Shown here: positions 540 to 31,498 of the stretch, one piece after another | Numbering within the stretch: position 1 is the first letter of the stretch | How the letters are laid out: each line of letters starts with the position of its first letter | DNA from: Pedococcus dokdonensis | GTDB lineage: Bacteria; Actinomycetota; Actinomycetes; Actinomycetales; Dermatophilaceae | Length of the DNA stretch: 64,000 bases | Direction of reading: 5' to 3' | Assembly (NCBI RefSeq): GCF_900104525.1 | Contig: NZ_LT629711.1 | Span: forward strand, 3,286,001 to 3,350,000 | Position numbers and translations under genes: made by a program | Notes under the pieces: generated by a model | What the model was told of the DNA's origin: nothing | Database searches by the model: none | Seen by the model: only the letters and a program-made list of their open reading frames with translations

Positions 540-3500
540 TCAATCGGCGGGCGGCTGCGACGCGGACGTAGATCCATCCCATACGAGAAGCCGCCGGGTC
601 GAAGCAATCAGTGCTTTTCCCGACTCATCGCGCTCGATCTCTGGTTCGCGAAGTGCCTGCCATCCCGCGTCGAATCCGAACTTTGTCGCCTCGCCGACGG
701 GGTTTTGGATTCGGTGAATCACTGCAGCGTCGTCGTCCTCCGCGTGCTCCACCACGTACAACCAGAAGTCGTCTGGGTGGGTGCGGTTCTCCTCGAGCTG
801 TGTTGCCGACATCCAGACGCCGAAACCAGTCCACGCTCCGCCGATTGACTTGATCTCGATGCGACGAAGAACGGCGCCATCTGAGTCCTTGGAGAGAATG
901 TCGTAGCCGGGGTTGTTGTGAGCTTGCTCCTCTGGGGTCCGGCCGCAGGATCTCTCGTACTCGAGGACACGGCGGACGCCCGCGATATCCACAGGTGACT
1001 TCTCAGGCGCCTCGTCGCCGCCGTCGTCGTGGCCTTGGTCCTCGTCGTCGAACGACACGAAGGAAGCCATGTGAGTCCGCCGTTGCCCACTGCCTGAGCG
1101 ACGTTGGGGGCGCTTCCGGCTCGAGTTGGTCGATGACGGTGTGCCATCGCCGTCCGCGTTACCTCCCGGCTCGGACGCTGCGTCGAGGGCCGCGTAGTCC
1201 GTTGAATCGTCGTCCGAGGAAACGGGCGGGTCATCGAGCTGATTTGAGGCGAGGTCCGGGTCGGACGGGGTAAGGGGGTCGAGGTCGAGATCTTCGACCT
1301 CGACCGAAGTCTGGCTGCCCACGCGCTCCCACTCCGTGTGGTCCAGATCCCGCACCCCGTACTCGTCGAGGACAGTCATCGCACCAGTGAGATCGGAGGC
1401 AGTCAGAACTTCCAGGATGGATGGCGCCAGGGAGCTGACGTCGATGCCGGGGGCGATGCAAAGCGCGATCTCTCGAGCAATGTGACGGTTGGGGGTCTCC
1501 GTTCGAACGATCAGGCGGTTTTCGTCGGGTAGGTAGATCGCTTCCGTTGGTCGGGGAGGATCGACCTGATGCTGGTGCGCGAATCGTGTGACGTACTCGA
1601 CGGTGAGGTCAGGCATTACCTCGATACCCGTCTCGGCCAGTCGGTTGAGGTCGTACTGGGCCCCGTCCTCTACGCGCTGCGCCTCCGCAAGACGCTCGAG
1701 TGCCGGCCTGCGGTCGTCCACAAGCGCAGCAAGCGACGACGCTTCAGTCGAAGGCGCCCCTTCATTGATGCACGGAGTGATCACTTCCTCGGCAGGTCGA
1801 ACCCCGGCTGCCGCCAACGCACGATGAGTGGACCGGTCACGCCGAATCAGGTTGTCCCTGATCAGAAGGATGGTCTCGGCAAGCCGACGGCCGTCTGCGA
1901 AAAGGAGCAGTTCGGGCTTCTCCAGCACGTCACGTGGGCCCACGGCGGACCTGATCGCTCCGAGCCTAGGCAGCGTGTCTGCTGACTCATGCAGATGCTG
2001 GTCGAGCAGTTCCCAGCAGCGATGGACAACCCGCTTGGCATCCTCATCGAGCCGTGTATTGCCAGCAGCTCGGCTGATTCGGCGCAGTGTTTCCTCGACG
2101 TGAGCCGGTTGCGCTGACTCGCTGACCCCGACCCGATCGAAGAAGGCTTGGTAATCGCGGTGGCCGGGCGCAAGAACATGTGCCCACTCGCCGAGTCCGG
2201 GATCTGACCAAAAGACGGTGTTGGGCTCCACGAACACCCCATCGCCGATTTGAACGCAAGGTTCGCGGCTCAGCGCCCTGACGGCGTGCTCCTCCTTCGC
2301 CTGCCCAAGAGCGCGGTACACCTCGGGGTGCAACCGGCTGTTGCCAGATACGCAGTGGCGCAGGTGGGCGATGACCATGGCTGTTGCCGGCGTCCTCTGG
2401 ACCCCCAGCCATTCCAGGACCGGGGCGAGTCGACCTTGGTCGGTCACATGGAGCGCCAGCTTCTTGCCCTGCGACTCAAATAGGTATCGCTGGAACGTTG
2501 CAAAGACTTGGTCCGGCTTGTCGCGGCCACCTCCCTCGCAGGGGAGCCAGGCTGCGGACTGTAGCGATCGCAACGAACCGGAAACGGTTTCTGACTCGGG
2601 CGGGTTGGGGAGAGCATCAAGGATCGCCAGAACGACGTCTGCGTCCGGGGTCACGTCTTGCTCTCCGAGTCTGAACGCAGCCTCGTTCAGAACCTCATTG
2701 CTCGGATGTGCCGACACCCCAAGCCACACGAGCGTCTCGAGAAGGTGCGACGCCATACCGCGAGTGTCGGCGATGGGCGCTTCAGGTGCGATGAGGGTAA
2801 GCGCCGGGTTGGGCAGGTGGACGTTGTGGGCCGGATGTAGTCCGTCGGAGCAGGGGACGAGCGGTGTCTGGCGGAGAATCTCGCGGGCGCCCGGTGTCTG
2901 GTCCAGCTCGACGCGGTGGCGCTGAATGATCTCGAGCACTTGCCGTGCTTGATCGGTGCTGAGGCCATTGACCGCAGCCGGCGCAACATGGCGCAGCAGG
3001 TACTCCACGGCGTCGAGCTCCCGGGCTCCGAGTAGGCGCAAGAGGTCGGTATGGCCGGCGGTCTTGTCACGGTCCACAACGTCGGCGACGCCAAGGAGGT
3101 CGTCAAAGTCGGACGACAGCGACAGTTCCGTGAGCGGCCGGAGTTCGCCACCGGTGCTCGGGAAGAGGGGAAGAGCGCTGACGCGGGCTCGAAGCTCTTG
3201 AGCCAGGGCCGCCCGGTGGTTGTCCAGCCAGTCAAGCACCAGGTCGGGCGCAACTTCGAGAGCGGCTGGATCGGCTTCGAAGATCGCGACCGCTCGCTCA
3301 GGGTTGATGTCGTCGCAGAGGTCGATAAGGTTAGGACAGAGTCCAGCCAATCTCTCTGTGTCCACGATCTTCAGGTCGGGGTCGAGAAGTTCGAACAGCG
3401 CGCGGTCGTCCTCCTCGAGTTTAGATACCCGGCTCGCAGCCGCGAACGTTCCGTCCACGCAGGGGACGATCGCCACGCCAGCGATACTGGAGTTGGCCAG

Positions 3501-5003
3501 CAGCGACTTGCCACGCTCTTGAAGGTGGTTGACCAAGCGCAGGAGCGCGTCGACGTCATCAGCGGTGAGCAGTGCGTCGTCGCGCTCCGGCTCCCACGCC
3601 TCAGCTATCCCGGATTTCTCCAGGGCCGAAACAACATCGGAGATCCCGAGGAGGCTCATGCCGTACTGTGTCAGCGTCGTCTGCCTAGCTAGCGGGCGAA
3701 TCGACGGCGCGAGGACCGGGACGCCTAGTCGGAGCAGGACCTCTACAGCGTCGTACTCTTCCTCGTCTCGTGGCACGAGCGTGCCGGCCGGCAAGACGCC
3801 GGTGTCGTCGGCAAGTAGCGCGATCCGCGATGCGGAAGCGAGCTCCTTCGCCCGTTCGAAGAACTCGCTGAACACCGCCGGGTATTCATCCTTGGCGATG
3901 TCGCGGTTGACCCTCTCAACGTCCACCAGGTAGTTCCACGCGACTCGGTGGCCGAGCTCCTGTGCGATGGTCTCCAGGTTGTCGGCGACAAGGACGGCTG
4001 CGGCATCAATAAGGATGTCGTTCCACTTGCCGCGAAACCCTCGGCTATCGAACTCCACTCCCTTCCGGTCCTGTCTGGGAAAGAACGTGGCGTTGACGTG
4101 GCCGCTCCAACCGGTCCGAGTCTCGGTAGGGAGATCCGCGAAGATGCGCCCTACGACACTTTCCTCGACAGGTACGGCGACCTGAACTAGTGAGGATCTG
4201 CTCGAATCGGGCTCGTACTCCTCCTTCAGCCGGTCCGCACCCTCGGCCTCGCCCTCGAGGAGCAGCCACTCCGAGGAATCACCGTTGACCGTGATGGTGA
4301 TCCGGTTACCCTGCTGCCGCCTGCCGACCTTGGACGTCCGTTCGGGCGACTCAATGCTGAGTACTTGAGTTCGGTCGAGGAACACTAGGGCGGCGCCGGC
4401 TGCATCGTGCAGTTCGTCGACGAGCCGGGCAACGTCTGCATCGGTGAGCGGGGGTGCGCTCAAGTCTCGGCGCAGCGGCGTGTGCTGCCGGGCCCAAGGC
4501 AGATAGAAGGTCGTACCGGCAGATGCGTGGTCTCGCGGGCAGCCCCCGGGGCATAGGACGATCCTCTTGTTCTCGTCACGGGACTCGTCGAGGATCAGGT
4601 GTCGCCCGGCCGTGAGCACCTCTGGATGGTCTGTGACCTGATAGACGGCCGTGAAGCCCACGCCGAACGCTCCTGTGGTCCGGGCGTCATCGGCCTTGTG
4701 GCGCCCCGCGACCTCGCGAAATGAGTGCAAGTCGCAACTGCGCCTGCCCTCGTCAACTTTCCAAGGACACCGCTTCGACTTCTCTTGATGCCCACAGTCG
4801 GTGAAAACCGCGGAGTTCCAGACGGTGAGCTCCTGGTGTGACGCGACGAAGGTGATGCGGTCCGCCTCCGCGTCGTTCGCGTTCTGTGTCAGCTCGTGCA
4901 AAAGGGTGCCGCCGCCCCCGAGATCCTTGAGAATGTTTGCAAGGTTCCCGAGATGGTCCGACGCTCTCGACAGTGTCGTCGGCTCGCTTGCCGTTCCCGC
5001 CAT
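540..5003 (-). CDS. Sacsin-like GHKL ATPase with C-terminal DUF3883 domain
   Basis: A very large protein (1487 residues from the chosen start). The N-terminus has a Hsp90/histidine-kinase type ATP site: N-box ELTQNANDA at about residues 37-45 and a glycine box GAFGVGF at 111-117, as in sacsin-type proteins. Between and after them are C70, C79, C90 and then C151 and C155, a possible zinc-binding insertion. The long middle part has no domain I can name. The C-terminus looks like DUF3883: GYDI followed by RIEIKS gives a PD-(D/E)XK-like set D1368, E1383, K1385. I chose ATG 5003 because GGGGAAGG lies just upstream; the frame also opens from 5111 but would overlap the divergent gene. It is transcribed away from the restriction-like operon and probably belongs to it as an ATP-dependent sensor or effector; that role is inferred. 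Confidence 0.85.
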   Translation of the reverse strand: MAGTASEPTTLSRASDHLGNLANILKDLGGGGTLLHELTQNANDAEADRITFVASHQELTVWNSAVFTDCGHQEKSKRCPWKVDEGRRSCDLHSFREVAGRHKADDARTTGAFGVGFTAVYQVTDHPEVLTAGRHLILDESRDENKRIVLCPGGCPRDHASAGTTFYLPWARQHTPLRRDLSAPPLTDADVARLVDELHDAAGAALVFLDRTQVLSIESPERTSKVGRRQQGNRITITVNGDSSEWLLLEGEAEGADRLKEEYEPDSSRSSLVQVAVPVEESVVGRIFADLPTETRTGWSGHVNATFFPRQDRKGVEFDSRGFRGKWNDILIDAAAVLVADNLETIAQELGHRVAWNYLVDVERVNRDIAKDEYPAVFSEFFERAKELASASRIALLADDTGVLPAGTLVPRDEEEYDAVEVLLRLGVPVLAPSIRPLARQTTLTQYGMSLLGISDVVSALEKSGIAEAWEPERDDALLTADDVDALLRLVNHLQERGKSLLANSSIAGVAIVPCVDGTFAAASRVSKLEEDDRALFELLDPDLKIVDTERLAGLCPNLIDLCDDINPERAVAIFEADPAALEVAPDLVLDWLDNHRAALAQELRARVSALPLFPSTGGELRPLTELSLSSDFDDLLGVADVVDRDKTAGHTDLLRLLGARELDAVEYLLRHVAPAAVNGLSTDQARQVLEIIQRHRVELDQTPGAREILRQTPLVPCSDGLHPAHNVHLPNPALTLIAPEAPIADTRGMASHLLETLVWLGVSAHPSNEVLNEAAFRLGEQDVTPDADVVLAILDALPNPPESETVSGSLRSLQSAAWLPCEGGGRDKPDQVFATFQRYLFESQGKKLALHVTDQGRLAPVLEWLGVQRTPATAMVIAHLRHCVSGNSRLHPEVYRALGQAKEEHAVRALSREPCVQIGDGVFVEPNTVFWSDPGLGEWAHVLAPGHRDYQAFFDRVGVSESAQPAHVEETLRRISRAAGNTRLDEDAKRVVHRCWELLDQHLHESADTLPRLGAIRSAVGPRDVLEKPELLLFADGRRLAETILLIRDNLIRRDRSTHRALAAAGVRPAEEVITPCINEGAPSTEASSLAALVDDRRPALERLAEAQRVEDGAQYDLNRLAETGIEVMPDLTVEYVTRFAHQHQVDPPRPTEAIYLPDENRLIVRTETPNRHIAREIALCIAPGIDVSSLAPSILEVLTASDLTGAMTVLDEYGVRDLDHTEWERVGSQTSVEVEDLDLDPLTPSDPDLASNQLDDPPVSSDDDSTDYAALDAASEPGGNADGDGTPSSTNSSRKRPQRRSGSGQRRTHMASFVSFDDEDQGHDDGGDEAPEKSPVDIAGVRRVLEYERSCGRTPEEQAHNNPGYDILSKDSDGAVLRRIEIKSIGGAWTGFGVWMSATQLEENRTHPDDFWLYVVEHAEDDDAAVIHRIQNPVGEATKFGFDAGWQALREPEIERDESGKALIASTRRLLVWDGSTSASQPPAD

Positions 5004-5016
5004 GCCCGATCCTTCC

Positions 5017-5032
5017 CCGTTCCGAAGAACGG
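5017..5032. promoter_or_regulatory. Palindrome in the divergent defence-locus promoter region
   Basis: CCGTTC and GAACGG form a perfect 6-bp inverted repeat around CGAA in the roughly 135-bp gap between the sacsin-like gene (start 5003) and the res-like gene (start 5139). It overlaps the edge of the leftward Shine-Dalgarno sequence. It could be an operator or an mRNA hairpin limiting translation of the ATPase. No clear -35/-10 pair was recognised. Confidence 0.3.
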
Positions 5033-5138
5033 TATCGAGGAAGGCTGACAGGGTCAGTCGAATCGCCCGAATCCGCCCAATCCGTCGGTTGACCTCACTA
5101 GGGTGACCCATTGTGGGAGCAAGCAGGGCGCGGCAGCC

Positions 5139-8100
5139 ATGACGGGGACGATCGACAACCCCATCCTGAACTCGCCATATGAGCAGCCGGACCGGTACTA
5201 CGAGATCGGTCCGCAGGGCCCCACCGGCGAAGTCAGGGAGGGCCGTCGCCCCAGTGAGTCGTTCATCCCGATCGCCGTTTCCCGGAAGGGCCAGAAGGGC
5301 AAGGGCGACTCCGTCCAGGAGTCCTTCGACTTCGACGCCACGGGAGAGCGCCGAGAGAGGAACAGCCTAATCAACGACGTCCGACGGGACGTCGCGAAGT
5401 GGCGTCGTGGGCGCGAGTACGCCGGCGTGACACCGATCACCCGAAAGCTCCTTCAATACTGGGCTGACCCCGAGCGAGAGAATCGGGTCATCTTCGCCCA
5501 GCGGGAGGCTGCCGAGACGGCGATCTTCCTCACCGAAGTCGCGGGTCGAACTCATAGTTATGCGGACTGGCGCCAGCGACTGGAGCCGCAGAACGATCTC
5601 CACAATGCCGGTCTGCCGCGAGCTGCCCTCAAGATGGCGACCGGCTCCGGCAAGACCGTCGTGATGGCGATGCTGATCGCTTGGCAGACCCTCAACAAGG
5701 TCCAATCGCCGCGGGACGCTCGATTCACAAACCGCTTCCTGATCGTCGCGCCCGGCATCACCATCCGAGACCGCCTCCGGGTGCTCCTTCCGGAGGACAC
5801 GGAGAACTACTACGACCTCCGTGACCTGATCCCTGCCGACCTCAAGGGCGGCTTGGAGCACGCCCGGATCGTGATCACCAACTACCACGCCTTCCAGCTC
5901 AAGGACGCCAAGGAGATCAAGGGCGTCGCCAAGAACACCCGCCTGCTGCTCAAGGGTGACATGAAGGGTGACCCCTTCAAGGAGACACCCCAGGCCATGG
6001 TGAGTCGTGTCCTGCGTGACCTCGGCGCGGACAAGCAGCAGATCATCGTCTTCAACGACGAAGCCCATCACTGCTACATGGACAAGCCTCTCCCTGCCGG
6101 TGAAAAGGCCGCCAAGGAACAGGAGGCCGCCAACGACGAGGCCAGGGTCTGGTTCAAGGGCCTTCAGGCGGTCGCCAAGCACGTCGGTGTCAAGCAGATC
6201 TTTGACCTCTCGGCAACGCCGTTCTACCTCGCTGGCTCCGGCTACAACGAGGGCTACATCTTTCCCTGGACCGTCAGCGACTTCTCACTCATGGATGCGA
6301 TCGAGGCCGGCATCGTGAAGGTGCCAAGAACCCCGGTCGATGACGACGCCGCCCACGAACTGGTGACATACCTGCGCCTCTGGGATTTCGTCGGCGAAGC
6401 CCTACCCAAACGCGCGGCAAAGGGAAACGTCGCCGGTTGGCTGCCACCGCCCGAGCTCGAGGGTGGGCTCAGGAGCCTCCATCGCAGCTACGAGAAGGCC
6501 TTCAACCACTGGGAGACTGAGCTCGCACAACATGGCGAGACTCCACCTGTCTTCATCGTCGTCTGCCCGAACACCGTCGTGAGCAAGCTGGTCTACGACT
6601 GGATTGCCGGCGAGGAGGTGGTCGGGGACGACGCGGTCGTCGCGCACAAGCCCGGGAACCTGGCGCTGCTGAGCAACGTCCAGGACGGCCGGCCACTCGC
6701 GCGGCCACGGACTGTCCTCATCGACTCGGCTCAGCTTGAGTCCGGCGAGGCCATGAAGGCCGACTTCAAGCTCGCCGCAGGGCCTGAGATCGCCTCGTTC
6801 AAGGCCGAGTTCCGGCGTCGCAACCCGGGAGCGGACACCGACCAACTCACCGACGAGGACCTGCTCCGCGAGGTGATGAACACGGTCGGCAAGAAGGGCA
6901 AGCTCGGCGAACAGATCCGCTGCGTCGTCAGCGTTTCCATGCTCACCGAGGGATGGGACGCCAACACCGTCACCCACATCCTCGGAGTCCGCGCGTTCCG
7001 CAGCCAACTCCTGTGCGAACAGGTAGTCGGCCGAGGCCTGCGACGACGGTCGTATGCCGTGAACGATCAAGGCTACTTCGAGCCGGAGTACGCCAACGTC
7101 TACGGCATCCCGTTCCAGTTCATCTCCTCCGACAAGCCGATCAAGGACCCGCTGCCACCCAAGCCGGTCCAGCAGGTCGCTGCCATCGAGGGCCGGGAAC
7201 ACCTTCGCATCCAGTTCCCCAAGCTAACCGGTTATAGGGTCGAGCTCCCCGACGAAGACATTTGGCTCGACCTGGAGAATGCACCCGCCTTCGAGATCGG
7301 CCCGAACACCGTCCCGCGATGGGTGGAGATGCAGGGCGTGGTCGGTGCCGGCGAGAGTGAGGGTGGCGAGGACCGCGCCTACCGGCCTCAGGAGGTTGCC
7401 TTCGCCCTGGCCAAGCGAATCCTGGACACTCGGTTCAACACGGTTGACGACAAGCGACCGTGGCTGTTCCCGAGGCTCATCGGGATGTGCCGGGAATGGA
7501 TCGACCAAAGGGTTCGGCTCGCCGAGGGCTACACGCTCGCCCACCTCATGACCATCACGGAGGTGCAGGCGGAAGCTGCCGAGCAGGTCTGGAACGCAAT
7601 CACACGTCAGGTCGGCAACCGGCGCGAGCGGCTTCGACCAATGCTCAACCGGTTCGACCCTGAAGGCTCGACGGGCGACGTCGACTTCGACACCCGCAAA
7701 TCCACCGTGTCCACGGAGAAGTCCGAGGTCTCTCACGTCACCCTCGACGGAAAGGACGGCAACACCTGGGAGCAGCTCCTCGCCTCCGAGCTCGAGCTGA
7801 ATCGGAACGTCGATGCCTACGTCAAGAACGACCACCTCGGGTTCAGCATCCCGTACGTCCACAAGGGCCGCACCCACTCCTACGTTCCCGACTTCCTCGT
7901 GCGACTCCAACCACTCGACGGCGATGACTTGGCGCGGACACTGATAATCGAGGTGTCCGGCAGTCAGAAGAGCCCCGGACCAACGACCGCCAAAGCCACG
8001 ACCGCACGCGACTCATGGTGCGCATCGGTGAACAACCACGGCGGCTTCGGTCGCTGGGGCTATATCGAGATGACCAATCCAATCGACTTCAAGACCCAGC

Positions 8101-8201
8101 TCGCCGAGGCGATTCAGCTCTTGTACGACGACGGGCCCATCATCGGCGACCCAGACCTACTCGACTTCGACGATGACGCAAGGAGCGCTCGTGGCGCGTA
8201 A
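5139..8201 (+). CDS. res: Type III restriction Res-like DEAH helicase-nuclease
   Basis: A 1020-residue superfamily 2 helicase of the type III restriction Res family. Visible motifs are Walker A ATGSGKT (lysine about residue 172), DEAH box NDEAHH (about 307), SATPF, and the arginine-finger region QVVGRGLRRR. The C-terminus keeps PD (D918) and E938 of a PD-(D/E)XK nuclease, but the expected lysine of ExK is serine (EVSG); a lysine follows at 944. The start is taken as ATG 5139, matching MTGTIDNPILNSPYE-type family N-termini; the frame also opens at 5103. It overlaps the next gene by 11 nt and heads a four-gene operon. It would drive ATP-dependent translocation on DNA recognised by the Mod partner. 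Confidence 0.9.
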   Translation: MTGTIDNPILNSPYEQPDRYYEIGPQGPTGEVREGRRPSESFIPIAVSRKGQKGKGDSVQESFDFDATGERRERNSLINDVRRDVAKWRRGREYAGVTPITRKLLQYWADPERENRVIFAQREAAETAIFLTEVAGRTHSYADWRQRLEPQNDLHNAGLPRAALKMATGSGKTVVMAMLIAWQTLNKVQSPRDARFTNRFLIVAPGITIRDRLRVLLPEDTENYYDLRDLIPADLKGGLEHARIVITNYHAFQLKDAKEIKGVAKNTRLLLKGDMKGDPFKETPQAMVSRVLRDLGADKQQIIVFNDEAHHCYMDKPLPAGEKAAKEQEAANDEARVWFKGLQAVAKHVGVKQIFDLSATPFYLAGSGYNEGYIFPWTVSDFSLMDAIEAGIVKVPRTPVDDDAAHELVTYLRLWDFVGEALPKRAAKGNVAGWLPPPELEGGLRSLHRSYEKAFNHWETELAQHGETPPVFIVVCPNTVVSKLVYDWIAGEEVVGDDAVVAHKPGNLALLSNVQDGRPLARPRTVLIDSAQLESGEAMKADFKLAAGPEIASFKAEFRRRNPGADTDQLTDEDLLREVMNTVGKKGKLGEQIRCVVSVSMLTEGWDANTVTHILGVRAFRSQLLCEQVVGRGLRRRSYAVNDQGYFEPEYANVYGIPFQFISSDKPIKDPLPPKPVQQVAAIEGREHLRIQFPKLTGYRVELPDEDIWLDLENAPAFEIGPNTVPRWVEMQGVVGAGESEGGEDRAYRPQEVAFALAKRILDTRFNTVDDKRPWLFPRLIGMCREWIDQRVRLAEGYTLAHLMTITEVQAEAAEQVWNAITRQVGNRRERLRPMLNRFDPEGSTGDVDFDTRKSTVSTEKSEVSHVTLDGKDGNTWEQLLASELELNRNVDAYVKNDHLGFSIPYVHKGRTHSYVPDFLVRLQPLDGDDLARTLIIEVSGSQKSPGPTTAKATTARDSWCASVNNHGGFGRWGYIEMTNPIDFKTQLAEAIQLLYDDGPIIGDPDLLDFDDDARSARGA

Positions 8202-10908
8202 CACCTCCAAGGGCTCGACCCCCGTCGATGCGATCAAGCACACTGACAAGCGGACCAACATCCCTACCGCCGACGCCCACGAATTCGTGGATCCGTCGAT
8301 CGAAGAGATTCGCCAAGTCCGCTACGCCCGGGACGAGAGTCTCGACCCGCAGTTGGTCTGGCGCGGCAAGTACCCGGCGGCGAATCATCTCGAAGGGTAC
8401 GACGGCGACCTCGTTACAGACGCACCACCAATCTACATTCAAGAGAAGATCGATCCGCGGGTCCTGATCGAGAACCTCCGTCGCACGGCGGCCCGGAGCG
8501 AGGACGAGCCAGAACTGACCCTCTTCGACTCCTTCGATGGCCTCGCCGAACTCGACCAGGTCGACTTTTACAAGCACGATGCGAACTGGTCAAACCGCAT
8601 GATCCTTGGCGACTCGCTCCAGGCGATGGCCTCTCTCGCCGAGCGGGAGCAGTTGCGAGGCAAGGTGCAGATGGTCTACATAGACCCGCCCTACGGCATC
8701 AAGTTCAACTCCAACTGGCAGGTCTCAACCCGGAGTCGCGATGTCACGGACGGCAAGCTGTCAGATGCCGCGAGGGAGGCCGAACAGATCAAGGCGTTTC
8801 GCGACACCTGGCAGCTGGGCATCCACTCCTACTTGACGTACCTGCGAGATCGCTTGCTTGTAGCGCGTGAGTTGCTGACTGACTCAGGGTCGTGCTTCGT
8901 TCAGATCGGCGATGAGAACGTGCATCTGGTTCGTTCGCTCGCCGACGAGGTGTTCGGAGCAGAGAACTTCGTCACCATGGTTACGGTCACGAAGACGAGC
9001 AGTTCCACGAGCCCATATCTTGGGGGCACAGCGGACTACATTCTCTGGTACGGGCGAGACCTCACGGTCATGAAGTACCGCCCCCTCTGGCGGCTAAAGG
9101 CGGTCGGTGCGGAGGGTGCGGGTTCATACGGTCGAGTGAGAATCGGCGATCTCACCCGGACTCTTACGCCTGAGGAACGGCGCGACCCGACGTTGATTCC
9201 TGACGATGCCCGGCTGTACACGACTAGCGACCTCACGAGCCAAGCGATGGGCCGGGCAAAGGGCGAAGGCGCCGCCTCTTGGTTCCCCATCGAGGTAGGC
9301 GGCGTGGCGTACACCCCGAGTATGCAGGCCAGGTGGAAGACGAATGAGCTGGGCATGTCGCGGCTGCTCGCGGCTGGACGCGTGGAAGTAGTTGGAAAGA
9401 CCCCACGCTACGTCAGGTATTTCGATGACTTTCCGGCGTTTCCCTACACCGAAATCTGGAACGACCTGGGCGGTGCTACGGACAAGACGTACGTGGTGCA
9501 AACCGCTCCACGAATCGTTGAGCGTTGCATGCTCATGTGCAGTGATCCCGGCGATCTTGTCCTGGACCCGACGTGCGGCAGTGGCACCACGGCAGCGGTC
9601 GCCGAGCAGTGGGGTCGTCGTTGGATCACCATCGACACGTCTAGGGTGGCGCTCGCACTGGCTCGCCAGCGCGTCATGGGCGCACGGCACCCTTGGTACC
9701 TCCTCGCCGACTCGCGTCAGGGCCTCGACAAGGAGCAGTCGCTAACAGCACTTGCCCTTCCGAGACAGGAGGTGTCGGGGGATATCCGTCAGGGGTTTGT
9801 CTATGACCGAGTCCCGCACGTCATGCTGCGCTCGATCGCGAGTAACCCCGAGATTAAGGAGGCAATGACTCGCGGACAGATCGACGCGGCTATCAAGCGT
9901 CACTCGGATTTCGAACTGCTCTATGACAAGCCATTCGAGGACCCCAAGAAGGTCAGGGTTGCGGGCCCGTTCACGGTCGAGTCGCTCAGCCCTCACCGGT
10001 CGCTGGCCTTTTCCGGCGGACCCGCGACCGAGTCACGTGCCGAGACCGAGGCCGCCAAGGAGGCCGCCGCGCCGAACTTCGAGCAGTCGATTCTGGACAA
10101 TCTCGCCAGGGCCGGTATTCAGAACGGGCGGCGTCAGGAGCGCATCACTTTCGCCTCGTTCGAGACATACGCGGGCGAGTACATCCAGGCGATCGGGGAG
10201 CGGGCAGGTGATACGGAAGGTGATGCACCAAGCCGCGTGGCGATTGCCATCGGACCTCAGTACGGAACGGTCAGCCCGGCATACGTGAAGAAGGCGGCAC
10301 GGGAAGCCATCAACGCCGAGGACGTTGACCTGCTGTGCATCCTCGGGTTTGCCTTCGACGCGCAGGTGACTGGAGTGACCGAGGACGACGGCGTCACGGT
10401 GGAAGCATCGGACGAAGGCTTCGCGAATGTCGCAGGTGCGCGGAAACTCGGCCGCATCCCGGTCCTCATGGTCCGCATGAACGCCGACCTGTTGATGGGT
10501 GAGGAACTCAAGAAGACCGGTGCCGGCAACCTCTTCACCGTGTTCGGTGAGCCCGACATCGAGATCGAAGACACGGCCGACGGCTATGTTGTCAACCTCA
10601 AGGGCGTCGACGTCTACGACCCGACAACTGGCGAGGTCCGCAGCAACGACACCAGCCGCATCGCGCTCTGGATGATCGACACGGACTACAACGAGGAGTC
10701 CTTCTTCGTCCGCCACTGCTACTTCACTGGCGACACCGACCCCTATAAGAGACTTAAGACGGCCCTGAAGGCGGATATCGACGTGGACGCCTGGGACTCG
10801 CTGTATCAGACCACGTCCCGCCCCTTCCCGAAGCCGGAGACCGGCAAGATCGCAGTCAAGGTCATCAACGACTATGGCGACGAAGTCATGAAGGTCTTCG
10901 ACGTATGA
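8191..10908 (+). CDS. mod: Type III Mod-like DNA methyltransferase (beta class)
   Basis: A site-specific DNA methyltransferase of the type III Mod family, about 905 residues. Catalytic motif IV DPPYG is at about 165-169 and the AdoMet motif DPTCGSGTT at about 459-467, the order seen in beta-class amino-methyltransferases. The roughly 290 residues between them should hold the target-recognition domain. About 400 residues follow the AdoMet motif, more than in classical Mod proteins. I prefer GTG 8191, preceded by AAGGAG with 5-nt spacing, over the ATG at 8173. Its last codons overlap the OLD gene (ATGA at 10905). It probably forms the recognition and modification complex with the Res-like protein. 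Confidence 0.9.
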   Translation: MARNTSKGSTPVDAIKHTDKRTNIPTADAHEFVDPSIEEIRQVRYARDESLDPQLVWRGKYPAANHLEGYDGDLVTDAPPIYIQEKIDPRVLIENLRRTAARSEDEPELTLFDSFDGLAELDQVDFYKHDANWSNRMILGDSLQAMASLAEREQLRGKVQMVYIDPPYGIKFNSNWQVSTRSRDVTDGKLSDAAREAEQIKAFRDTWQLGIHSYLTYLRDRLLVARELLTDSGSCFVQIGDENVHLVRSLADEVFGAENFVTMVTVTKTSSSTSPYLGGTADYILWYGRDLTVMKYRPLWRLKAVGAEGAGSYGRVRIGDLTRTLTPEERRDPTLIPDDARLYTTSDLTSQAMGRAKGEGAASWFPIEVGGVAYTPSMQARWKTNELGMSRLLAAGRVEVVGKTPRYVRYFDDFPAFPYTEIWNDLGGATDKTYVVQTAPRIVERCMLMCSDPGDLVLDPTCGSGTTAAVAEQWGRRWITIDTSRVALALARQRVMGARHPWYLLADSRQGLDKEQSLTALALPRQEVSGDIRQGFVYDRVPHVMLRSIASNPEIKEAMTRGQIDAAIKRHSDFELLYDKPFEDPKKVRVAGPFTVESLSPHRSLAFSGGPATESRAETEAAKEAAAPNFEQSILDNLARAGIQNGRRQERITFASFETYAGEYIQAIGERAGDTEGDAPSRVAIAIGPQYGTVSPAYVKKAAREAINAEDVDLLCILGFAFDAQVTGVTEDDGVTVEASDEGFANVAGARKLGRIPVLMVRMNADLLMGEELKKTGAGNLFTVFGEPDIEIEDTADGYVVNLKGVDVYDPTTGEVRSNDTSRIALWMIDTDYNEESFFVRHCYFTGDTDPYKRLKTALKADIDVDAWDSLYQTTSRPFPKPETGKIAVKVINDYGDEVMKVFDV

Positions 10909-12686
10909 AGCTCACCCACATCCGGATCAAAGACTTCCGAAGCTTCTCTGGCGAACACGAGTTCGATGTTTCGTCCGGCGTGAACTACTTCGTGGGGCCA
11001 AACAACTGTGGCAAATCCAACCTCGTGCGCGCGCTGGAGCTTGCGTTGGATCCGGACGCGAAGTACGTCCCGGAAAGGGACCGTCCGGCGCGGCCTGGCG
11101 CACTGGGTGCTCCGCCGACGACGCGGATCACGCTGACGTTCCACGTGGGGAAGACGAGCCCCGAGGTCACACTTCTGACGCGTGCGAAAGAGTTCGAGCT
11201 GGCGGTTCGCAAGGCACGCAAGGGCGCAACGACGGGGAAGATCCAGACCTATGCCGCAGATCGGGAGGTCCGAATGGTCACGTCGTTTGCAGGACATGGC
11301 GGCCGGCAGACGACCTTCCAAGCGAGGGGCTACGGCGCAGCATCGTTGCCTGCCGATAGCCAGCAGCACTTGAAACTCGAGGCTCAGTTTCGCTCGGTGG
11401 TCCGCTCAGCGGTCGTGCACAGCGGCGAAGACCTTGAGTCGCTCTTGCAGGGTAAGTTCCGCCAGATCCTGCAACTCGTGATCGCAGACCACTTGGGCGA
11501 GGAGCTTGGAAAGGCGGAGCAGGCGCGGGCGGAATACCTAGAGGCGCTGCGGGCTGAGCTATTGGAACCGCTTCGGGCCCAGATCCAGGACAGGGTCGGT
11601 GCGATGTTTCCGGAGATCGCGTCCGCGAAGCTGGTGCCGGACCTACCGTCTGTTGCGGAGACGTTGTCCTCGGTTGACGTCCAGCTTGGAGACGACCTCG
11701 TCACGACGCAGCTCGTCGACAAGGGAACCGGAGTCCGTGGGGCCGTGCTGGTTTCCATGCTCCAGTACCTGGCTGAGCAGAGCAGACGCTCATTGGTGTT
11801 GGCGGTCGAGGAGCCTGAGGCGTTCCTTCATCCCGCGGCCCAAGAAGCCATCATGCAACAACTGGAGGAACTGGCCACGCGGTCCGACGTCTCCCTATTG
11901 GTCACGACTCACTCGCCGTACGTCCTGTCGAGGCGCGCGGACGCATCGATCACCGAACTGCGAAAGCGGCCGGACGGCGTGACGAGCAAGGCCGCGACCT
12001 GTGCTGGAGATCAGAGCCGAGCCGAGTTGATCGGATCGCTCTATCGCGACGCTGGCATGGCTGGCGTGCTCGAACGGGCTCTTACGATCCCGGCCGGTAC
12101 ACGGGCGGTCGTGATCACGGAGGGATACACCGATGGCGAGTTCCTGCGCATCGCGTGCCGCGCCGCAGGACGCTCCGAACTTCTCGAAGGCATCCACATC
12201 ATCAGCGCAGGCGGCGCCAAGAAGGTCGTCTTTCAAGCCATCCTGGCGCGCTCTGCCACGGACAAACCGGTGGTCGCGATCCTCGACCATGACGATCAAG
12301 GCCGAGCGGCCATTTCGAAGCTCGAGGACTTCGGCTGGGCGAAGAACAAGGAACTCGTGTCGCTAGCATCTTGGTCGAACAGGTGCGCAAAAGGCCATGA
12401 CGTCGAGATTGAGGACTTGATCCCGTCCTCCCTCTGGGAAAACGTCGTCAAGCGCGTGGGCGAGCTGGACGCCATCGATTCGAAGCAGAAGTGTGGGGCT
12501 AAGTGGCATTTCCAACTGAGCACGGCAGGCAAGGCCGAGGCACTGACCATCCTGCCCAGCACGATGAGGGCCGCGCACGCACAGGGCCTCGTTTGGCTCG
12601 CTGAGGAGATCGAAGCCCGCGTCAAGAAGATCGAGAAGTCATCTGCCACAACCAAGGCGTATGCGAAGGTGCCCGCAACGTCATGA
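10905..12686 (+). CDS. Class 2 OLD-family ATPase-TOPRIM nuclease (GajA-like)
   Basis: A 593-residue OLD-family protein, the usual size of the Gabija nuclease GajA. The N-terminal ABC/SMC-like ATPase has Walker A GPNNCGKSN (31-39), a Walker B region VEEPEAFLHP with E302/E303, and a H-loop TTHSPY with H336. The C-terminal TOPRIM domain shows ITEGYTDGEF with catalytic E406 and LDHDDQG with D461 and D463. Class 2 OLD proteins are defined by a neighbouring UvrD/Rep-like helicase, which is exactly the next gene. The start overlaps the mod stop and the end overlaps the helicase start, both by ATGA, so translation is probably coupled. Expected activity is metal-dependent DNA nicking or cleavage controlled by nucleotides. 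Confidence 0.88.
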   Translation: MKLTHIRIKDFRSFSGEHEFDVSSGVNYFVGPNNCGKSNLVRALELALDPDAKYVPERDRPARPGALGAPPTTRITLTFHVGKTSPEVTLLTRAKEFELAVRKARKGATTGKIQTYAADREVRMVTSFAGHGGRQTTFQARGYGAASLPADSQQHLKLEAQFRSVVRSAVVHSGEDLESLLQGKFRQILQLVIADHLGEELGKAEQARAEYLEALRAELLEPLRAQIQDRVGAMFPEIASAKLVPDLPSVAETLSSVDVQLGDDLVTTQLVDKGTGVRGAVLVSMLQYLAEQSRRSLVLAVEEPEAFLHPAAQEAIMQQLEELATRSDVSLLVTTHSPYVLSRRADASITELRKRPDGVTSKAATCAGDQSRAELIGSLYRDAGMAGVLERALTIPAGTRAVVITEGYTDGEFLRIACRAAGRSELLEGIHIISAGGAKKVVFQAILARSATDKPVVAILDHDDQGRAAISKLEDFGWAKNKELVSLASWSNRCAKGHDVEIEDLIPSSLWENVVKRVGELDAIDSKQKCGAKWHFQLSTAGKAEALTILPSTMRAAHAQGLVWLAEEIEARVKKIEKSSATTKAYAKVPATS

Positions 12687-15487
12687 CCGCGTATACCGAG
12701 GCACAGGCACAGGCCATCGATTGCCTGGACGAGCCGCTCCAGATCATCGCTTGTGCGGGATCGGGCAAGACACAGGTCATCTCCCAACGCGTGGCAGAGA
12801 TTCTCAAGCAGCCGAAGGTTGAGCCCCGCAACATCATCGCTTTCACCTTTACCGAGAAGGCTGCGGCCGAGCTCAAGGAGCGCATCCACACGGTTCTTGA
12901 AACTGAGGGCGTGAGCACTCAAGGCATCGCCGAGATGTACGTAGGAACCATGCATGGCTACGCACTGGACCTGGTCCAGCGACTGGTGCCAGAGACCTTC
13001 AAGTTCTCGGTCCTGACCGACATCACGACCAGGCTGTTCATCGATCGCAACAGTAGGAAGTCCGGCCTCACCGAATGTCCGACGCTCTCCCCCGGCACAC
13101 CGCGGCTACGTCGGTTCCTCCACTCGAAGCTCTACATGCAAGCGACAAGCGTGTTGCGAGAAGACACTATCGATGAGGAGCGGGTCCCATCCGGCGTACT
13201 GAAGTCCCACTGGGAATACATGCGCCTGCTCTACGACAATGCCTACTTCGACTTCACCGAGATGATCAATCTCGCAGTGCAACTTCTTGAGGCCGACCCT
13301 GCTGAAGATGCTGAGGCTGGGCTCGTGCAGCGCCACATCCGCGACGCGATCAGATACGTCGTCGTAGACGAGTATCAGGACGTCAATCCGCTCCAGGAAC
13401 GACTCATCCGTGGGCTCGTGCAGTTCAGTGCGAACCTCTGCGTCGTCGGGGATGACGACCAAACCATTTACCAGTGGCGCGGCAGCGAGGTCAGCAACAT
13501 TTTGACCTTCAGCGATCGATACGCCGGCGTCAGGCAAGTAACTCTGGACGACAACTTCCGCTCAAGCAAGGGTGTTGTCGAAGTCGGCCGTTCGGTGGCG
13601 GAGCTCATCCCGTTTGAGGCGAGGCTCTCGAAGGCGATGGTCGCGGCCGGGCATCAGGACTTCGCTCGAGGTGACCTTCTGGCTCTCGACTTCGCCGACC
13701 CCGACGCTGAGGCCTCGTGGATCTGTGAACGTATACAGGCCATGCGTGGAGTTGCGTTTGTGGACGGACCGGGGGCAGATCCGCGCGGCCTGTCGTGGTC
13801 AGACTGCGCGGTGCTGTTTCGTTCGGTGGCACGCGACGCAGGACCACTGGTGGACGAGATGCGCCGCAGGAACATTCCGTTCGTGATCAAGGGCCTCAAC
13901 CGGCTGTTCGACAGCCCCGAGATCCACGCGATCGTAGGCGTCTTCCGCTACATCGTGAGCCAGATCGACGGAGTCGCTCTGCGGAACCTGTTCGACGACG
14001 CGTCGCTGCTCCCGCCCTGCTGTGACTGGACGGCAGCAATGCAGGTGCTGAACGAGGGGCGCGACTTCGACCGCGGCAAAAGGTGGGGCGTCTACAACAT
14101 CCAGCGCCTGTATCTCGAGTTCCTCGAAGCCCTGACGCTCCGCGAAGACACCGTCCCCGGAGATCCCGCCCGCGCGGAGCTGGTCTTTTATCAGCTCGGC
14201 AAGTTCAGCCAAGCGATCTCGGACTTCGAGGCCATCTACTTCAACACCGACCCTGAACAGAAATACAGGTCGTTCGCCGACTGGCTGGAGCACCAAGCGC
14301 CCGACTACTACGCCGACGCAGGCGCGGACGTCGGCTACGCCGCGCCCGACGCCGTCGTGATTTCAACGGTCCACCAAGCCAAGGGCATGCAGTGGCCCGT
14401 CGTGTTCGTCCCGTGCCTCCGCAACAACCGCTTCCCAGCTAAACGACAGGGCGGGCTTGGTCTCTTCCATGTGATCCCGGACACCGCGGTCGCGAGCCCC
14501 GATCGCTACCGGGGGACCGTGGACGATGAAACCCGCCTGTTCTACGTGGCGGTGACTCGTGCGCAGAAGTACCTGTTCCTGTCCTACTCCCCGGTGCCGG
14601 GCAATCGGCTATACGGCAGACGATCGCAGTTCTTCGACCACTGCGCTCGACAGTCCTGGTTTCTGACTCGCGAGTTGAGGGCTCCTTCGCCGACGCTTCA
14701 GCCACACGCCAAGCAGGAACTCCCTAACGTCTCCCTCTCGTTCTCCGAGCTCAAGTACCTCTTCGAATGCCCTTACCAGTTCAAGCTGCGCTTCCTGTAC
14801 GGCTTCAACCCGCCGCTCCATGAGGCCCTCGGCTACGGCAAGGGTCTGCACGACGCGCTGGCTGAAGCACACAAGCGGGCCCTCGACGGGGATCTCGTCG
14901 GGCCGAGCGCGGCAGAGGACCTCGTTGATCGACATCTGCACGCTCCGTACGCGTATCCAGCGCTGAAGGCAGCGCTACGCGACGCGGCGATCAAGTCAGT
15001 CGAGCGCTACCTGACCGAGCACGCTGCGGACCTGGAGCGAACGATCCACAGCGAGAAGCAGATCCAGGTACACGTCGCGCCCGGGATCACTGTTGATGGC
15101 CGCATCGACCTCATTCGCCGCCTCGACAGTGACGAGGTGGCGATCGTCGACTTCAAGTCGACCGCCAGGGCGCAGGACGAGGACGTCACGCGGGACCAGC
15201 TTCATGTGTACGCGGTCGGCTATCAGGAGTTGACCGGTCGGCGTGCCGACCTAATCGAGGTCCTCAACCTAGACGAGCAGGGCAAGACGATCCGCGAACT
15301 GGTAGAGGACCCGCTGCTCAGCGCCGTCCGTGGTCGGATCAAGACGGCAGGCGACGCGCTGCGCGACAACGATCTTCCACGACTGCCCGTTTGGGATGAC
15401 AAATGCTCCCAGTGTGACCTCGCTGAGCTGTGTAGAGACATCCCTGACGATCAGAAGAGGGCACGCAGGGTTGCGAACGGGCGCTAG
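12683..15487 (+). CDS. UvrD-family helicase fused to AddB/Cas4-type Fe-S nuclease
   Basis: A 934-residue superfamily 1A helicase. Motif I CAGSGKT (24-30), motif Ia FTFTEKAAAELK, motif II DEYQD (229-233), motif III VVGDDDQTIYQWRG, motif IV DDNFRSS, motif V STVHQAKG and motif VI RLFYVAVTRA are all present. From about residue 690 follows a RecB-type nuclease: D809 in GRIDLI, then VDFK with D823 and K825. C696, C908, C911 and C917 match the AddB/Cas4 pattern of one distant cysteine plus C-x2-C-x5-C, which binds a 4Fe-4S cluster. Gabija GajB is only about 500 residues, as I recall, and lacks such a nuclease. This is the last gene of the operon. Confidence 0.9.
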   Translation: MTAYTEAQAQAIDCLDEPLQIIACAGSGKTQVISQRVAEILKQPKVEPRNIIAFTFTEKAAAELKERIHTVLETEGVSTQGIAEMYVGTMHGYALDLVQRLVPETFKFSVLTDITTRLFIDRNSRKSGLTECPTLSPGTPRLRRFLHSKLYMQATSVLREDTIDEERVPSGVLKSHWEYMRLLYDNAYFDFTEMINLAVQLLEADPAEDAEAGLVQRHIRDAIRYVVVDEYQDVNPLQERLIRGLVQFSANLCVVGDDDQTIYQWRGSEVSNILTFSDRYAGVRQVTLDDNFRSSKGVVEVGRSVAELIPFEARLSKAMVAAGHQDFARGDLLALDFADPDAEASWICERIQAMRGVAFVDGPGADPRGLSWSDCAVLFRSVARDAGPLVDEMRRRNIPFVIKGLNRLFDSPEIHAIVGVFRYIVSQIDGVALRNLFDDASLLPPCCDWTAAMQVLNEGRDFDRGKRWGVYNIQRLYLEFLEALTLREDTVPGDPARAELVFYQLGKFSQAISDFEAIYFNTDPEQKYRSFADWLEHQAPDYYADAGADVGYAAPDAVVISTVHQAKGMQWPVVFVPCLRNNRFPAKRQGGLGLFHVIPDTAVASPDRYRGTVDDETRLFYVAVTRAQKYLFLSYSPVPGNRLYGRRSQFFDHCARQSWFLTRELRAPSPTLQPHAKQELPNVSLSFSELKYLFECPYQFKLRFLYGFNPPLHEALGYGKGLHDALAEAHKRALDGDLVGPSAAEDLVDRHLHAPYAYPALKAALRDAAIKSVERYLTEHAADLERTIHSEKQIQVHVAPGITVDGRIDLIRRLDSDEVAIVDFKSTARAQDEDVTRDQLHVYAVGYQELTGRRADLIEVLNLDEQGKTIRELVEDPLLSAVRGRIKTAGDALRDNDLPRLPVWDDKCSQCDLAELCRDIPDDQKRARRVANGR

Positions 15488-29859: not shown

Positions 29860-30256
29860 TCGGCCCCCCGACAACAGCTGGCGACTTCGGCGAACGGGCC
29901 CGTAGCGCCGCCCGACACGGTCCAGGCCCACTTGAGCGAGACTCGCTTTGGACCGCACGGGCTGACCAGGTCCCGCACCATGCTCGCGCCACGCAAGTTG
30001 TCCGCCTCGCGGCGGTATGACTCACCCAGAACGGCACTCAGCTCGTGGCCCCACAGGACGTCCCAACCACTGGGTCAAGCGCCTCAGCGAGTTGGCCATG
30101 GCGAGCGATCCACAGCACGTAGTCAGACGAACGCTGTGAGCCCAGATGAACGCAAGGGACCACGTGAACCTCAATGGGGTAAACCTGAGCAGCCTCCTGC
30201 GGCCGGGGGCCACCGAGCCAAGCAAGATGAATTAACCGCGCCCTCGTGTGGCCCAC
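29860..30256 (-). pseudogene. Possible frameshifted gene remnant
   Basis: This is the larger part of an apparent 480-bp gap (29824-30304). Two leftward frames look coding and join with a one- or two-base shift near 30060: the first ends SSDYVLWIARHGQLAEALDP and the second continues WDVLWGHELSAVLGESYRR and READNLRGASMVRDLVSP. No family is recognised. A short broken gene is the simplest reading, but chance is not excluded. Confidence 0.3.
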
Positions 30257-30304
30257 TCGCGCGCCGTCTGCCTCGGTTGGATGGTTTGCGCAAGAATCGC
30301 TGAT

Positions 30305-31498
30305 ATGTCTGGGTCAACGTTCGGTGAACCGCTTCCCGAAGATCGCCCACTTCTCCACCACGAGGACATGTCCGAGAAGATCGCCAAGGGCGTTCCTCTC
30401 CTGCCGGCGACCATGCAACTGGTCAACTTCGAACAGTTGGCCTTGGTATCTCAGGTAGTCGGTGACTCGACCACCCACGAGTCGGTCCGTCTACTGTTCA
30501 ACCTCGCCGTTAATGACTTCCGAGATCTGCTTGATGACATCGAGACGGGCTCGGGTCGGTCTGCAATGCGAGCAGCACGTTCCGTGATCGAACACGCCAT
30601 CAACTTGCGCACGGTGACCTCGAGTTTGGCCGAGGCCTCACGGTATGCGGAGCATCTGGACTTGGGACCAGCAATGATGGTTGACCTAGAGCCTGGAGCC
30701 GATCGCTTGAATGCGGCAGCGCGTCGCAAGTACACGCGTGCGCTCAGGAAGGCAGGGGTCGCCTCTAAGCGTCGCTTCAACGCAGCCGTCGCCGAACACG
30801 GTCACTGGTTCTCGCGCAACTGGACAAAACGCACCTTGAAGGATCGCGCGACCGTCGCGGGACTTGAACATCTATACACCTACTACAAGCTCGGTTCCCT
30901 GGTAAGCCACGGCAGCGCGGCGGGCTCCCTTGGCACCGTGTTCGATAGCCCAAACGGCTTCCGCATTTTCCGCACGGGGCTGTCCCTGGAATTGGCTCCA
31001 GTGGCCATGTGGGCTGGAATCGCGGGCTACCGGGAAGTGCTGTCCGCGCTGCAGGCGGTCCGGCCGGACCTAGAAGTCGACGCTTACAGCGATGGACTTG
31101 ATGCCCTGGACGGTCTTTGGGCCGAGTACTTCACCGCTTTGGCCAAAATCGATCGAGCCTTGTGGCCGACTGCACCAGTCGAGGCTCCGAGTGCAGTCCT
31201 GGCCTTCACCCAGAGCAAGGTACGTCGCTGGTACCTCCATCTTCCGATGACTGGTGCTCTGATCCGAGCCAAGACGCCAGACCTACCAGCGTGGATGGAG
31301 GATCGAATCGATCAACTGGTTGACCGCATCGTCACCGAACAACCTGATCTATTCCGGCCCGACCAGCGGTGGGTGACTGCGCGAGTCGCAAATGTCACTG
31401 TCACGCCTGAAGCACATGCGGAAGCCATTCCGGACACCGCCCTTTTTCAGAGCTCCCCCTCTGGCTTCGTAATCCGCGATCTGCCTAGTCTCGATTAG
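30305..31498 (+). CDS. DUF5677-like helical protein, unknown
   Basis: A 397-residue protein from ATG 30305 (the frame opens at 30248). The part RSAMRAARSVIEHAINLRTV and the following helices resemble DUF5677-type proteins. LYTYYKLGSLVSHGSAAGSL gives an S-H-G motif also seen in the divergent neighbour (GMVHGRR). No nuclease or NTPase motif is seen. In islands like this, such proteins are often uncharacterised defence or stress genes; I make no functional claim. Confidence 0.6.
   Translation: MSGSTFGEPLPEDRPLLHHEDMSEKIAKGVPLLPATMQLVNFEQLALVSQVVGDSTTHESVRLLFNLAVNDFRDLLDDIETGSGRSAMRAARSVIEHAINLRTVTSSLAEASRYAEHLDLGPAMMVDLEPGADRLNAAARRKYTRALRKAGVASKRRFNAAVAEHGHWFSRNWTKRTLKDRATVAGLEHLYTYYKLGSLVSHGSAAGSLGTVFDSPNGFRIFRTGLSLELAPVAMWAGIAGYREVLSALQAVRPDLEVDAYSDGLDALDGLWAEYFTALAKIDRALWPTAPVEAPSAVLAFTQSKVRRWYLHLPMTGALIRAKTPDLPAWMEDRIDQLVDRIVTEQPDLFRPDQRWVTARVANVTVTPEAHAEAIPDTALFQSSPSGFVIRDLPSLD

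Follow-up and report, generated by a model that had tools for sequence, protein, structure and literature searches.

Among the closest described defence systems, as far as the available portions of the cited papers go, Gabija combines an OLD protein with a helicase. Class 2 OLD proteins, that is GajA, are defined by context, the OLD gene lying beside that of a UvrD helicase (PMC10568477), and linear DNA not occupied by RecBCD has been proposed as the substrate of Gabija (PMC12407980). For BREX and related systems, a role of OLD-TOPRIM modules as backup effectors has been described (PMC12839542), and UvrD-Cas4-like fusions with a predicted role in defence were located in type III Mod/Res loci by Hudaiberdiev et al. 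2017 (PMC5704561). Tiamat is listed among the systems enriched in Actinobacteria; its mechanism is unknown and it is almost always chromosomal (PMC10482375). A literature search on titles and abstract openings yielded no report of a Res-Mod-OLD-UvrD operon.

The window, by which we mean the whole stretch of 64,000 nucleotides of Pedococcus dokdonensis DNA that was analysed, had in a preliminary description been credited with a composite defence unit of five genes, in which a divergent giant ATPase with a DUF3883 end accompanies four overlapping rightward genes encoding a type III restriction-modification (R-M) pair and an OLD/UvrD pair. The five reading frames are indeed present at the positions given there (540-5111 divergent, four rightward within 5139-15487), and the overlaps of 11 nucleotides, ATGA and ATGA are as described. 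With a probability of roughly 60% we read the locus as a four-gene operon in which Mod of a type III-like R-M pair is followed by two exchangeable nuclease modules, carried on a probable integrative element. The features are given below, with reference to two related loci, L004 (an Actinomycetota bin, MAG contig) and L005 (Mycobacterium sp.).

540..5111, minus strand: homologue of TmtA (Tiamat), a sacsin-type ATPase with a C-terminal NOV_C/DUF3883 domain (PADLOC, Pfam)
5139..8201, plus strand: Res, a type III-like restriction helicase-nuclease of the BPTD_3080 family, 1020 amino acids (NCBIfam NF046055)
8191..8201, plus strand: Res/Mod overlap of 11 nucleotides (GTGGCGCGTAA), identical in L005
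8191..10908, plus strand: Mod, a type III-like N6-adenine/N4-cytosine methyltransferase, 905 amino acids (PADLOC PDLC03632)
10905..10908, plus strand: Mod/OLD overlap ATGA, also in L004
10905..12686, plus strand: OLD-family ABC ATPase with TOPRIM nuclease, 593 amino acids (Pfam, PADLOC, motifs, fold)
12683..12686, plus strand: OLD/UvrD overlap ATGA, also in L004 and L005
12683..15487, plus strand: UvrD helicase fused to a Cas4-like PD-(D/E)XK nuclease, 934 amino acids (Pfam, motifs)

The stop codon of Res ends at 8201 and Mod most plausibly starts with the GTG at 8191, where a GGAG ends five bases 5' of the start codon, which results in the 11-nucleotide overlap; the longest reading frame of Mod would begin with the ATG at 8173. 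With start codons picked by us, the Res/Mod overlap measures 11, 8, and 11 nucleotides in the window, L004, and L005, respectively. The Mod/OLD junction is ATGA in the window and in L004 and a gap of 25 nucleotides in L005, and the OLD/UvrD junction is ATGA in all three loci. As the same overlaps recur in the relatives, they are more than chance. A promoter scan gave no promoter-like site, and a terminator scan gave one terminator-like site, which lies within OLD, fewer than were obtained in shuffled sequences. The four genes Res-Mod-OLD-UvrD are presumably transcribed together. When the window was compared with L004 in steps of 150 columns, nucleotide identity ranged from 49 to 80% in Mod and from 55 to 73% in OLD. 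The highest local value, 90%, was found over 10850-10964 at the Mod/OLD junction, and a dip to 49-68% at 8918-9502 within Mod falls where the target-recognition region would be expected.

Res scored 1180.7 bits with NCBIfam NF046055 (BPTD_3080), for which the equivalog cut-off is 800, and is thus a member of this family; Pfam ResIII and the helicase motifs are present. At its C-terminus (window 7881-7970) the sequence PD...EVSGSQK stands in place of the canonical PD-ExK. When the window and 15 loci were aligned, all twelve actinobacterial rows had serine instead of the ExK lysine and a lysine four positions further along, whereas ExK is kept in all three proteobacterial rows and the single cyanobacterial row is without both lysines. 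Since the motif is EVSGxxK and not ExK, cleavage by Res on its own is uncertain. A single-sequence search with Res gave no PDB match at E 0.001. Mod, which adjoins Res, scored 934 bits with the type III methyltransferase profile PDLC03632 of PADLOC, as calculated for the longer reading frame, and matches Pfam N6_N4_Mtase. All 15 aligned rows have DPPYG, and all but L108, which has GGG, have DPTCGSG; the methylation type and site of Mod are predicted ones. These scores agree with the R-M pair of the preliminary description, here taken as type III-like.

The OLD protein combines an ABC ATPase with a TOPRIM domain with intact catalytic residues and accordingly belongs to the OLD family. Pfam detected AAA_15, and the match to the OLD-like TOPRIM domain stayed below threshold with 22.9 bits versus a cut-off of 23.2; the TOPRIM residues E406, D461, D463, and K543 are invariant in the alignment and the Walker motifs are kept. 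With the profiles of PADLOC, 122 bits were obtained for Old, 95 for AriA, and 82 for the best GajA. A structure model built from 23 sequences had a mean pLDDT of 80.5. The best Foldseek matches of this model were OLD of Thermus (TsOLD), GajA (E ~1e-17), and the effector of Retron-Eco8, with TM-scores of 0.3-0.4 over the whole chain. In a second structure comparison SMC heads ranked equal or higher by Z, as the ATPase part is common to both.

The last gene encodes a UvrD helicase (Pfam UvrD-helicase, 189 bits) with a C-terminal PDDEXK_1 nuclease (89 bits) which is absent from the preliminary description; as a UvrD fused to a PF12705 nuclease beside a type III-like Mod/Res pair it is a UvrD-Cas4 protein. 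Four cysteines of the nuclease are, by analogy, presumably placed as for an Fe-S cluster. Motifs of the SF1 helicase, the nuclease, and the methylase are conserved in the window, as are the Walker and TOPRIM residues, and mostly also in those relatives whose sequence extends far enough. UvrD-Cas4 was detected in six of 394 genomes of the class, and among these six only the genome of the window gave an OLD match. In a genome newly found by the UvrD search (L138) a UvrD of 69% identity lies beside another type III Mod (PDLC03645, 894 bits), and distant relatives (30-32%) occur on two plasmids together with cytosine methylases and type II enzymes. To speak of an OLD/UvrD pair, as the preliminary description did, is misleading: the genes are adjacent, but the UvrD is a Cas4-like fusion, which in the other genomes of the class was found without OLD.

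A scan of genome contigs for relatives of OLD gave at least 80 loci, of which L002-L010 match over most of the length (E <=1e-90); at E 0.001 OLD has 519 homologues. Among the matches listed, three loci carry Res-Mod-OLD-UvrD, namely the window, L004, and L005. Gene order is the same, and identities for Res, Mod, OLD, and UvrD are 79, 74, 65, and 73% in L004, where UvrD runs off the contig, and 76, 70, 59, and 68% in L005, where Res begins at the contig edge. Among the matches listed, six OLD loci either have at least 54% identity or are the window itself; three of them bear the four genes, and the other three are L002, L003, and L006. It is this four-gene part of the proposed composite, recurring at 59-79% identity with its overlaps mostly kept, that is supported, and the five-gene version is not.

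Elsewhere OLD has other company. In Rhodococcus (L006:2-11740) it comes after DrmMI (truncated at the edge of the locus), DrmA, and DrmB, all recognised by profile; a reading frame with a phospholipase-D-like motif was read by eye as DrmC. In Microbacterium (L008, OLD 38%) it follows HsdM, HsdS, and HsdR. No UvrD-Cas4 was found in these two genomes, in which the neighbours of the OLD relative are DISARM and type I R-M genes, respectively. A remnant of the N-terminal part of Res is located just upstream of OLD in L010 (41%), and in L019 (29%) a Res relative lies on the opposite strand, running off the contig. UvrD-Cas4 was present in both genomes with Res-Mod-OLD and in none of eight others with an OLD relative, L010 and L019 included (E 1e-60). 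No clear defence partner of OLD was seen in L002, L003, L007, and L009 (reading frames scanned for L002 and L003). OLD of L002 is near a ParB-like gene and an AAA_30-matching reading frame read as a TraA-like helicase, and no R-M gene was recognised in 10 of 18 reading frames scanned there; OLD of L003 is broken and lies on a contig of 7 kb, and in L009 we read AddB/AddA-like genes further along. OLD is rare, with one match in 396 genomes of the order and one in 394 of the class, both being the window itself, and two in 301 genomes of the family of L005, those of L005 and L006, so that widening to whole genomes gave no new loci. Plasmids and phages gave no OLD match at E 1e-40 and 1e-20, and viral contigs gave distant relatives only (best 24% over 337 residues, E 2e-19).

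The place behind Mod was then viewed from the side of Mod, relatives of which were detected in 11 of 394 class genomes, that of the window included. In five of the ten other class regions (L100, L101, L102, L103, and L105) the gene behind Mod is this UvrD. These five loci are not independent, since three are from one genus and two of those have nearly identical flanks; in L101 the nuclease part of UvrD breaks off. As a separate observation, Mod is in at least two pieces in L102, L103, L104, and L105, in L105 also Res and UvrD, by decay or assembly error. L099 has a PDC-S29 candidate (213 bits) a few bases past the end of Mod, the two reading frames behind Mod in L097 are without any PADLOC match, the contig of L098 ends ~0.9 kb behind Mod, and L106 is a remnant. 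In L104, with its Mod in two pieces, Res is ~8 kb away and a UvrD relative of 25% identity is ~4.6 kb downstream. None of the ten regions contains OLD at E 1e-5.

On plasmids, Mod matched 39 records, 17 of which were examined, chosen by coverage and annotation and not at random. A UvrD helicase of another type is found behind Mod in five of the 17; in H15 and H18 the two genes overlap by a single base, and in H9, H12, and H19 one or two small genes lie in between. One plasmid each has, behind Mod, a dCTPase-family protein (H7, 451 bits), a DUF4747 protein (H20), and a hypothetical gene (H6), the latter two without PADLOC match. In a Methylomagnum plasmid (H5, L142:3278-12472) the phospholipase effector and the cyclase of CBASS start 17 nucleotides after Mod of a BPTD_3080 pair. 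The remaining eight have nothing recognisable directly behind Mod, H8 being unannotated and Mod of H1 being interrupted by an insertion sequence. Some plasmids have an extra gene between Res and Mod; a small DUF3883 protein encoded at this place in L112:10033-11001 weakly matches the C-terminal part of the TmtA profiles.

Phylogenetic trees place the window, L004, and L005 in one clade for both Mod (100/98) and Res (100/100). In the tree of OLD from eight loci, by contrast, the type III-borne OLD of L005 from Mycobacterium joins the DISARM-borne OLD of L006 (100/100), and a single clade of the three type III-borne OLDs was rejected by the AU test (p 1e-52, at a cost of 100 log units). These are small trees with two long-branched rows, and they do not give a direction of exchange. 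With 39 OLDs one clade was also rejected (p 4e-109), a result which was set aside since 32 of the proteins had been added without known context; here L005 and L006 fall into the same clade of ten rows (100/100) without being sisters. The OLD tree conflicts strongly with those of Res and Mod and fits an exchange of OLD between systems. For UvrD, the tree of which was rebuilt without two very long branches, one clade of the OLD-bearing loci was not rejected (AU p 0.138), so that this tree does not show an exchange of UvrD.

The surroundings of the operon look mobile. The 3' end of a tRNA-Arg(acg) gene (genome 3270041-3270065) is repeated exactly over 25 nucleotides at 3388030-3388054, and these are the only two matches genome-wide with up to two mismatches allowed. 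Beside the tRNA lies an integrase-like reading frame (L139 4449-5801, identified by eye only), and the window encodes an NlpC/P60-transglycosylase, a TraG-type protein, and, with a score just under the cut-off, a TrbL-like protein. Taken together with the repeat, these genes agree with an integrative conjugative element, probably one of ~118 kb in which the whole window is contained (G000:C1:3270041-3388054). A DUF5677 protein encoded at window 30248-31498 is among the cargo of the element.

The divergent gene matches the TmtA profile of PADLOC (PDLC03969) with 1452 bits over residues 42-1518 of the long reading frame, which is near full-length, and Pfam confirms the Sacsin and NOV_C/DUF3883 parts that had been recognised before (SACS 77 bits, NOV_C 45 bits). 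The comparison with PADLOC that had been suggested thus identifies the first gene as TmtA, just as it identifies Mod as a type III methyltransferase. TmtA is the protein of the single-gene defence system Tiamat. Its start is probably the ATG at 5003 and not at 5111, as a GAAGGA is found six bases upstream and the profile match begins at residue 42; ~135 bp would therefore separate the divergent genes.

Starts this close could share regulation, and MORC, another GHKL family, has been reported in operons with type III-like helicases in what is available of one paper (PMC2292703), which would suit a single five-gene system including the divergent ATPase. Such a system is nevertheless highly improbable and was largely refuted by searches for TmtA, which, as a named single-gene system, was found in none of 13 other genomes bearing relatives of Mod or OLD, a set with four genomes 81-88% complete and four without stated completeness, run without positive control and leaving out G485 and six of the ten genomes with OLD relatives. 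A later run on 89 genomes of the order matched the copy of the window and no other, and as the same query recovers this copy the search works. TmtA was also absent from plasmids at E 1e-40 and from the regions retrieved around the other Mod loci. The expectation of five genes within 20 kb was not upheld in any of these sets, and because TmtA is missing from the genomes with relatives of Mod or OLD, the five-gene unit is unsupported; TmtA is a separate neighbouring system outside the operon. Its presence next door, as another defence gene on an element which looks mobile, and an OLD tree fitting exchange between contexts are what one would expect from ordinary clustering in a defence island, with independent genes functionally linked by nothing beyond co-transcription. 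We regard this as unlikely, since overlapping starts are kept at 59-79% protein identity and the top identity between the window and L004 (90%) is at the Mod/OLD junction, not within OLD (55-73%) or Mod (49-80%).

Somewhat more doubtful is that OLD and UvrD are Gabija (GajA-GajB), transcribed by chance behind an unrelated R-M pair. Their adjacency agrees with the contextual definition of class 2 OLD, as worded in the available part of PMC10568477, the OLD model matches GajA in Foldseek, and UvrD scored 186 bits with a GajB model of PADLOC. OLD scores higher with Old and AriA than with GajA, however, and UvrD of the window has a nuclease domain and 934 amino acids as compared to 382-725 in the listed GajB models. 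In the relatives, moreover, OLD and helicase are not kept as one pair: UvrD is behind Mod without OLD in five of ten class loci, and eight of ten genomes with OLD relatives are without UvrD-Cas4 (E 1e-60). The preliminary description had counted a mostly independent occurrence of Res-Mod and OLD-UvrD, with no preserved junction, against the unit; the former is partly the case, but loci with all four genes have kept the junctions. The replacement of the ExK lysine by serine in all twelve actinobacterial Res proteins, with ExK kept in the three proteobacterial ones, would also suit a Res which has lost its own nuclease, so that Res-Mod would be the sensor only and the added nucleases would cut. 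This is quite improbable in view of the lysine which all twelve have four residues further along, and of the fact that six of them (L097, L098, L099, L107, L108, and L114) belong to loci in which no OLD and no UvrD-Cas4 was found, L098 being counted with a contig that ends shortly behind Mod.

The preferred reading, an R-M pair with two exchangeable nuclease modules, builds on what was observed: which genes are present, how they overlap and recur, that their motifs are intact, and that the OLD trees fit an exchange between systems. Mod would mark host DNA at its own sites, and Res-Mod, using ATP, would find and cut unmarked incoming DNA. UvrD-Cas4 would then load on the ends and degrade the DNA, making repair impossible. 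OLD may serve as a second, backup nuclease acting on DNA ends or when the R-M core is blocked, a role modelled on proposals for OLD-type modules in BREX and PARIS. Given what has been proposed for Gabija on linear DNA, end-directed action is a reasonable guess for OLD. As relatives have different extras in the same place, the locus is better described as a known defence with exchangeable backups than as a wholly new system. More tentatively, the BPTD_3080 Res-Mod pair might serve generally as a platform on which the place directly behind Mod is a slot for exchangeable effectors, taken here to hold UvrD-Cas4, OLD, other UvrD helicases, CBASS, or dCTPase relatives, in which the slotted gene would be a guard triggered or released when phage proteins disable the core; OLD would be such a guard here, shared with DISARM. 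If true, second-line weapons of very different kinds would dock onto one R-M core, a single OLD family would serve DISARM as well as type I and type III R-M, and the guard idea would be directly testable.

As compared to known systems, the first gene is a near full-length match of Tiamat TmtA with no distinguishing feature found; it is a neighbour of this operon. With type III R-M as in EcoP15I the window shares a Mod matching EcoP15I Mod and other Mods of the PDB, and a helicase-type Res that ends in a nuclease-like region. It differs in the size of Mod (905 amino acids versus 567-644 in the three best PDB chains), the altered ExK motif of Res, and the add-on nucleases. As in Gabija, an ABC-TOPRIM protein of the OLD family adjoins a UvrD-type helicase, but in the window UvrD has a nuclease attached and accompanies Mod-Res, and both genes also occur apart. 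With the OLD-TOPRIM modules of BREX, as presented in the available part of PMC12839542, it has in common that such a nuclease is added to a modification-based core operon; the core there is that of BREX, whereas here it is a BPTD_3080 pair, and a relative of this OLD follows DISARM genes. Together with these BREX modules, the loci of Hudaiberdiev et al. 2017 (PMC5704561) come closest; in them UvrD fused to a pfam12705 nuclease is likewise encoded with type III Mod and Res; OLD is not mentioned in the available portion of that paper, whereas in the window it lies between Mod and UvrD with overlapping starts.
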